From contig JAISWH010000067.1 of assembly GCA_031271125.1 (NCBI GenBank), positions 1 to 33,974 of the forward strand: a stretch of 33,974 bases of DNA. The letters run 5' to 3'. This document shows positions 1-656 of this stretch, piece by piece (positions within the stretch are counted from its first letter, which is position 1; each line of letters opens with the position of its first letter). The notes under the pieces are model-generated. The model was not told where the DNA came from. It saw only the letters and a program-made list of their open reading frames with translations, and ran no database searches. Origin of the DNA: Dysgonamonadaceae bacterium (lineage in GTDB: Bacteria; Bacteroidota; Bacteroidia; Bacteroidales; Azobacteroidaceae). A program made the translations under genes and the position numbers.

Positions 1-69
1 CAAATTTGCTGCTCCAAAAACCATCGGAAACAGCAAAAACAAAAACATCATTTTTTTCTTCATTCTCAT
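1..69 (-). CDS. 5' end of a secreted protein gene (partial, runs off the window)
   Basis: Reading leftward from ATG at 69 gives MRMKKKMMFLFLLFPMVFGA followed by AANL before the window ends. A second in-frame ATG lies at 63. The lysine-rich start, hydrophobic stretch and small residues at the end form a typical Sec signal peptide, so the product is exported. Only 23 codons are visible, so the family cannot be named. The 105 bp directly upstream (70-174) show no convincing TTTG/TAnnTTTG promoter on this strand. Beyond that lies the 175-563 inverted-repeat segment, which could supply one. Confidence 0.6.
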   Translation of the reverse strand, partial: MRMKKKMMFLFLLFPMVFGAANL

Positions 70-174
70 CTTTTCAATTATTAATTTTCACATTTTTTAA
101 GTTTTAATACTTTTTTCAATAAAACGCATAAATCACTGTAAATCAATGTCTTATCAAACCAACTTTGTGCTTCC

Positions 175-203
175 AGTGTCTGTCACTGTATTGATGACAG
201 ACA
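175..203 (+). repeat. Left copy of a 29-bp inverted repeat with recombinase-site-like architecture
   Basis: The left arm AGTGTCTGTCA is followed by the 9-nt core CTGTATTGA and the right arm TGACAGACA. The arms pair over 9 bp. The whole 29 bp is the exact reverse complement of 535-563, and identity stops precisely at both ends. An arm/asymmetric-core/arm design is what tyrosine recombinase sites look like; a transposon end or plain hairpin is also possible. Confidence 0.7.
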
Positions 204-403
204 GCGTTTGTAAATGGCTGATTTTAAGATACTTAAGAGGCTTAATGTTTTACAAGTGTTTAACAAATTGTTAAATTGCAAAAAGGAGGCTGAAAAATAT
301 AGCTTATAAATTATTGATAATAAGATAGATAAGTACAATTTTTGTCTTTTTTACTATTTAAACAAGACTAAAAGAACTATAAATCAATAAGTTAAGCGGT
401 ATT

Positions 404-428
404 CTTATTTAGAATGATTCTAAATAAG
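404..428. promoter_or_regulatory. Perfect 12-1-12 palindrome resembling a Fur/PerR-family operator
   Basis: The arms CTTATTTAGAAT and ATTCTAAATAAG pair without mismatch around a single G at 416. The inner TTAGAAT-G-ATTCTAA has the 7-1-7 layout of Fur-family boxes (PerR-type TTATAAT-N-ATTATAA differs at one position per half). It sits in the middle of the segment between the two 29-bp inverted repeats. No run of T follows it, so it is unlikely to be a terminator. Operator function is inferred from shape alone. Confidence 0.45.
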
Positions 429-499
429 GGAGTTGAAAAAGTTGGCGGGACAAAGAAAAGTGTTTGCAAACGGATAGTAATCAATTAGATAGGTGTTCG

Positions 500-507
500 T
501 AACTTTG
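500..507 (+). promoter_or_regulatory. Candidate -7 element inside the inverted-repeat segment, facing right
   Basis: TAACTTTG matches the Bacteroidetes -7 consensus TAnnTTTG, but no TTTG lies 19-21 nt upstream, so it is only half supported. Transcription would start near 514 and run straight through the 535-563 repeat. If the segment inverted, the box would face left toward the exported-protein gene at 1-69. Confidence 0.3.
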
Positions 508-534
508 TGTCGGATTAAAATGCGAAAAATGGAG

Positions 535-563
535 TGTCTGTCATCAATACAGTGACAGACACT
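535..563 (-). repeat. Right copy of the 29-bp inverted repeat
   Basis: It is the exact reverse complement of 175-203: TGTCTGTCA, core TCAATACAG, then TGACAGACACT. With A533 and G534 the stem extends to 11 bp on each side (533-543 with 553-563). The core is in inverted orientation relative to the left copy, so recombination between the two would flip the DNA between them rather than delete it. The rightward transcript would form this hairpin followed by a T-rich tract, so it may also act as a terminator. Confidence 0.7.
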
Positions 564-656
564 TTTGTTAAAATTTTTCGGCAAAGAAAAACGCATTATA
601 ATTTTGACTCCACCAAACTCTCGTCAGAGAGCGTAGGGAAGCCATAGCGCACACCT

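Follow-up and report, generated by a model that had tools for sequence, protein, structure and literature searches.

At one end of a contig from an uncultured member of the Bacteroidales, an intergenic unit of 389 bp bounded by inverted arms stands upstream of a secreted-protein gene, which raises the question of whether it is a DNA inversion switch, a mobile element or a structural repeat. The window, i.e., the whole stretch of 33,974 nucleotides that was analyzed, is contig C59 of a 2.55-Mb metagenome-assembled genome (MAG) of 197 contigs and 82.7% completeness. As suggested by our comparison of sequences, the unit is very probably an inverton, an invertible promoter whose sites belong to the tyrosine-recombinase type.

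Architecture of the unit and its relatives in the genome

The arms at 175-203 and 535-563 are 100% complementary over 29 nt with 331 nt between them, exactly as the original prediction had stated, and its arm-core-arm description was borne out by a 27-nt site, TGTCTGTCA-CTGTATTGA-TGACAGACA, present in both arms, to which each 29-nt arm adds two outer bases. The features of the unit are as follows.

1-69, minus strand: 5' end, truncated where the contig ends, of a secreted-protein gene from a set of paralogues; starts MRMKKKMMFLFLLFPMVFGAANL
70-174, minus strand: conserved leader from the gene to the proximal site
175-203, plus strand: putative gene-proximal recombination site with core CTGTATTGA; 27-nt site at 177-203
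204-534, no strand: candidate invertible segment of 331 bp; 330-342 nt between sites in own-genome copies of subfamily sub1
404-428, no strand: palindrome CTTATTTAGAAT-C-ATTCTAAATAAG, a possible regulator site; self-inverted match there in 16 copies including the window
460-507, plus strand: putative promoter module with -7 box TAACTTTG at 500-507, directed away from the gene (OFF)
535-563, minus strand: putative gene-distal recombination site with the same core inverted; 27-nt site at 535-561
564-574, plus strand: conserved outer flank TTTGTTAAAA; site and flank form a hairpin followed by T-rich DNA

The TAACTTTG box lies 35 nt from the distal site and on inversion would move to 238-231, directed toward the gene at 69-1, as had been foreseen. 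The window indeed carries no recombinase, none of the genome's PF00589 and PF00239 matches being located on contig C59. In the proposed mechanism, a recombinase would pair the two inverted 27-nt sites, swap strands within a core of 7-9 nt and flip the 331-bp segment. In the current orientation the promoter would fire away from the secreted-protein gene (OFF), and once flipped it would read via the proximal site and the leader into that gene (ON). The hairpin of the distal site together with the T-rich flank might possibly act as a terminator in the OFF state. The palindrome at 404-428, a perfect 12-bp one inside the segment, is retained in many copies and presumably resembles a metal- or stress-regulator box.

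Comparison with the rest of the genome revealed full-length relatives with 85-91% identity and, in total, 41 aligned places, some of them partial (35 fetched stretches plus the window), which rules out a lone switch. The genome search for further sites that had been recommended returned 88 occurrences of the 27-nt site with no more than 2 mismatches, where the reversed control gave 1; G001, a genome of the same genus, holds 23 sites (control 1) and five other genus members hold 0-3 (controls 0-1). At 29 of the 41 places a left flank of at least 150 nt was available, and the start of a family gene was recognized by eye in 26 of these 29; the gene of L039 is broken, while L023, of whose leader only about 45 nt are left, and L031 have none. 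Junctions were classed, with the core always in the same direction and rows read by eye, by their outer sides L (leader) and R and inner sides iL and iR, the regular combinations being L-iL and R-iR. The same leader directly abuts the proximal site in 28 of the 31 two-site sub1 copies, the exceptions being L034_8066 (a 12-nt stub of R flank between leader and site), L013_3 (no flank) and L031 (an R-type flank). The earlier statement that identity stops sharply at the ends of the arms was therefore right inside the copy and wrong across copies, where homology extends on the left via the leader as far as the gene and on the right over some 10 nt (TTTGTTAAAA), past which the right flanks diverge; since it runs past both ends, the repeated unit is larger than 175-563.

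A composite N-terminal query of the secreted family gave 47 matches in the genome. Two family proteins were tested for domains, one of which carries Big_2 domains and a sub-threshold FISUMP match and the other a sub-threshold Lcl_C match. Among solved structures, 0 sequences were retrieved at E up to 1 with a profile built from three family proteins. Because the approximately 40 copies stand mostly upstream of paralogous Ig-like, FISUMP/Lcl_C-like secreted proteins, they would control a mostly silent surface or secreted repertoire.

Inverted site pairs thus bound an intergenic segment upstream of a gene, as in an inverton, and the many dispersed copies with terminal inverted repeats at 41 places are equally what would be seen if the sites were the ends of a non-autonomous transposon (MITE) spread by transposition, the main alternative named originally. 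Three elements that stand alone, with no family gene and R-type flanks left and right (L031 3068-3453, L086 1024-1410 and L093 1423-1807), speak for such spread, as do the 39 nt beyond the sites of L031, which form 95% inverted repeats, and the R-flank stub in L034_8066. However, the dispersal of some 40 copies was only one half of that expectation: flanks are not unrelated, the copies mostly share the homologous leader and a paralogous gene, and no target-site duplication was seen by eye in the flanks examined. Transposition also gives no reason for the conserved outward box, for the matched cores or for the inverted copy L202 described below, and we consider a MITE improbable. The spacing of 330-342 nt and the gene linkage do not suggest a REP/REPIN identity.

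On the right side of the window, the outer flank of the element lies directly upstream of the gene at 788-1932. A helicase gene, a gene of this 788 type and rsmI are consecutive in G001 and G018 (L093 2063-4145; L247; L248), and in the window's genome the helicase is located on contig C187 with a different neighbor; four further helicase loci were covered with only short downstream DNA. A rearrangement breakpoint apparently lies at the element beside the 788 gene.

Promoter-like box and orientation of the copies

An outward TAnnTTT[GA] box lying no more than 60 nt from the distal site was found in 43 of 43 two-site copies, which belong to three subfamilies in two species (31 sub1, 3 sub2 and 9 from G001) and in which the distal end was set by similarity to the window, and an exact inward TAnnTTTG at up to this distance from the proximal site in 0 of 43. 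The box would hence face the gene in one orientation only, as in an inverton, and the predicted switch design of inverted sites with an outward box is conserved throughout these copies. The per-copy chance of an outward box, computed on 42 of the 43, is 0.13-0.16. The leader is present in 39 of the 43 (29 sub1, 3 sub2 and 7 G001), with the box pointing away from the gene (OFF); the 43 include L031, L086 and L093, all without a family gene. Exact TAnnTTTG occurs in 22/31 sub1, 3/3 sub2 and 8/9 G001 copies and begins at a distance of 33-35 nt from the site; 58 nt was read for one sub2 copy, the third, whose slice was 25 nt off.

TAnnTTTG is given as the -7 sequence of Bacteroides in a study of that genus (PMC4747536). 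By reading, no -33 element was recognizable at the usual distance. Over the final ~105 nt, the sub1 and G001 consensus sequences are alike at 17-19 bases of each 30-base window, as compared with 3-13 in the rest. Between sub1 and sub2, ungapped comparison gave 6-14 of 30 throughout, the distal end being no better than elsewhere, and a common promoter module is visible by eye with a 2-nt shift. We infer that the box would be an active promoter.

All 29 leader-bearing sub1 copies of the window's genome share one orientation, so frequent random switching is not seen. The inverted state is represented there by L124, an L-iR junction in a decayed, inverted and truncated copy in which the site connects the leader with the wrong segment end. 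R-iL junctions were found in L031, L086 and L093 (the latter two judged from their flanks), lone sites between L and R in L160 and before a gene at L034:5084, and, by eye, a promoter module in L123 that is directed toward the gene and adjoins a broken site. A consensus assembly displays only the commoner orientation. The surface-layer gene BT1927 of B. thetaiotaomicron is reported to be on in about one cell per 1,000 during growth in rich medium (PMC12548429). Given such assemblies and such rarity, uniform OFF is compatible with rare switching and also with locking.

By locking we mean that the family descends from invertible promoters whose copies have ceased to flip in the window's species and are now fixed OFF or otherwise regulated, a reading that overlaps with the inverton explanation and that we regard as unlikely. 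The single orientation of the 29 sub1 copies and the decay of those own-genome copies whose promoter faces the gene (L124 and, by eye, L123) agree with it, whereas a mostly-OFF population would give the same picture in a consensus assembly, and cores remain matched in 32 of the 34 own-genome pairs despite shuffled halves of the segment, as set out in the following section. Across the assemblies, opposite orientations are displayed by the inverted sister locus L202 and the inverted relic L124, and the window copy is displayed in one orientation only.

Matched cores, mosaic segments and candidate recombinases

Cores are identical within the pair in the 32 pairs just mentioned. Core mismatches amount to 2/279 bases in sub1, 0/27 in sub2, 1/81 in G001, 1/9 in L076 (a copy from another MAG, see below) and 0/153 over seven core types in Dysgonomonas; the corresponding arm mismatches are 20/558, 3/54, 3/162, 1/18 and 39/306, so that the contrast between core and arm is clear in sub1 and Dysgonomonas only. 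Mixed cores were found in 2 of the 31 sub1 pairs, 1 of the 9 G001 pairs and L076. At core position 3 the sub1 pairs comprise 22 G/G, 7 A/A and 2 G/A (Fisher 1.4e-5, relatedness being ignored), and placing the A state on the segment tree requires 6 changes on the left and 8 on the right.

The two halves of the sub1 segment have uncorrelated distances (Mantel r 0.095, p 0.17), and 0 of 31 copies have the same nearest neighbor in both halves; the cores nevertheless match in 29 of 31. The cores therefore stay linked though the intervening DNA does not, and the combination of matched cores and shuffled halves argues for continuing exchange or selection. The arm variant TGTCTGTCT occurs in the left outer arm of 9 of the 31 sub1 copies and in the right outer arm of 0 of 31, a one-sided distribution that would fit exchange within the core that leaves the arms unconverted. 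Since the window's genome is an incomplete MAG, its mosaic copies could partly be assembly chimeras. Switching presumably continues today in the window's species.

Core matching might also reflect base pairing, if the sites were RNA or DNA hairpins that pair by complementary loops or terminate transcription. The site folds as a strong hairpin (by folding only), the two sites by construction have complementary loops, and both mixed sub1 copies are G/A, the kind that G-U pairing tolerates. However, a transcript over both sites would require a promoter, none of which was found, and physical inversion in L202 and L124 is left unexplained, which makes this structural reading highly improbable.

Tyrosine recombinase genes stand beside the segment in L190, L191, L206, L207 and L208 of Dysgonomonas, with PF00589 above cut-off in 5/5, and an HTH_18/AraC-family gene lies inside the segment or behind the site in L190, L191 and L206. 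The window's genome contains a comparable cassette on contig C14, in which a family gene (5475-2146), a site (5543), an AraC-family gene, TAACTTTG (6708), a site (6746) and a tyrosine recombinase follow one another; its TAACTTTG is outward, 38 nt before the distal site, and its arms differ from the window's sites. The C14 recombinase is 49-62% and the C58 recombinase 43-45% identical to the Dysgonomonas cassette recombinases, and the recombinase of G001 shares just 21-29% identity with the rest. The presence of C58-like proteins does not track the site, because 30 of the 38 genus genomes encode such proteins and the five other genus members tested have at most 3 sites. An Mpi-family serine recombinase scores 341 bits in the window's genome (cut-off 272) and the family is above cut-off in 8 of 38 genus genomes; no Mpi-family gene was found in the G001 assembly, which is 53% complete. 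One intact gene of this family and partial or broken copies were noted (L142 375-965 on G000 C27; L135 7222-7533; G000 C168 and C34). The inverted repeats near the Mpi-type gene (the 5 longest of 6) and near the C58 recombinase include no such site. A tyrosine recombinase of C14 or C58 type is the favored candidate, which would presumably act on the window sites in trans.

Several other candidates were rejected. The recombinase matches on C159 and C77, which neighbor the genes of pyruvate kinase and elongation factor Tu, were taken to be the housekeeping XerD and XerC. A diversity-generating retroelement was dismissed, the only RVT_1 locus found being a 585-aa ORF on C159 that we assume to be of group II intron type. 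Phage origin was dismissed on 0 matches of the exact-arm pattern in IMG/VR.

Occurrence in other genomes and comparison with known systems

The exact-arm pattern matched 13 stretches among GTDB contigs, 8 of which lie in unrelated groups and were taken as chance. In the stretch from Dysgonomonas sp. 521, a named strain whose record carries no MAG label, a second site follows at a distance of 320 nt and a homologous secreted gene is present. When 3 mismatches are allowed, this genome holds 61 sites (control 28), G055, the source of L076, 22 (control 2) and G056, the source of L073, 24 (control 18). From 19 fetched stretches plus L072 we obtained 17 Dysgonomonas pairs (L203, L204 and L206 being single sites), and cores are identical in 17/17, with seven types; shuffling gave a mean of 5.0 and a maximum of 12. 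The box is outward near the distal site in 11 of 16 pairs (L205 was not scanned), faces the gene in L190, at a distance of 38 nt from the proximal site, and is absent in exact form near an end in L072, L201, L202 and L207 (4/16). Family genes gave 42 matches in this strain, and by coordinates some stand in tandem behind one switch.

Of four sister copies, L201, L072 and L205 have the same orientation relative to the leader and L202 is inverted (1/4). Against L201, the inner part of L202 is identical at 308/317 positions when flipped and 113/249 unflipped, with a left flank identical at 119/119; the inner arms travel with the segment, and the inversion thus lies exactly between the sites. L201, L202 and L205 are near contig ends, and the gene is covered for L072 and L202 only. 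With this copy and the decayed L124, inversion at such sites, as originally proposed, is seen in both genomes, and the switch reading is supported in substance by the sequences.

L076 158-536 is the same element with an outward TACTTTTG and one base different between its cores, in a MAG named Prevotellaceae Pc512_bin92 whose bin label may be wrong. Its genome, G055, has 0 family-gene matches, a signal-peptide-like start alone remaining at the contig end. A scan of 33 regions upstream of family genes in 8 genus genomes for inverted pairs 100-700 nt apart (6 regions had <300 bp upstream) found the site pair only in L122, from the own genome. Other inverted repeats appeared in L104, L106, L116, L121, L130, L132 and L133. 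Those of L132 and L133 (G012) are arms of 95 and 87 nt upstream of family genes, and L110 (G006), a weak possible analogue, has 20-nt arms separated by 265 nt ahead of a family gene.

What the repertoire serves can be proposed only tentatively. A gut Bacteroidales symbiont might use nearly identical promoter switches to keep approximately 40 variable secreted proteins silent with one or few on per cell, in the manner of antigenic variation, while exchange of switches between loci shuffles flanks and chromosome order; we hold this as a possibility on the doubtful side. If the inverton reading is true, the invertible promoters that share one site type are unusually numerous here, both in an uncultured member of the Bacteroidales and in a named Dysgonomonas strain, and promoter inversion would extend to a FISUMP-like secreted family. 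Matched cores with shuffled halves could moreover be a signature for spotting active recombination sites in assemblies without reads. In the open-access literature searched, no paper was found on FISUMP and inversion, and among the matches listed for phase variation, invertons, Mpi and shufflons no title or abstract describes this switch family.

Among known systems, the layout resembles the S-layer locus BT1927 of B. thetaiotaomicron, where a surface protein is preceded by an invertible promoter between inverted repeats and is mostly OFF (PMC12548429). The likeness is one of layout, the protein family differs, and here there are approximately 40 loci of one site type together with cassettes carrying AraC-family genes. 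Mpi, Tsr0667 and Tsr19 of Bacteroides fragilis likewise combine one trans-acting invertase with many distant promoters, 13 regions in the case of Mpi (PMC4747536), whereas the present family has about three times more loci and its recombinase is more likely a tyrosine recombinase of C14 or C58 type. The human-gut inverton groups of PhaseFinder type are defined by their inverted repeats and have an embedded Bacteroidota promoter motif (PMC11892184); they are likened here by description, and the family reported here differs from them in its hosts and genes.
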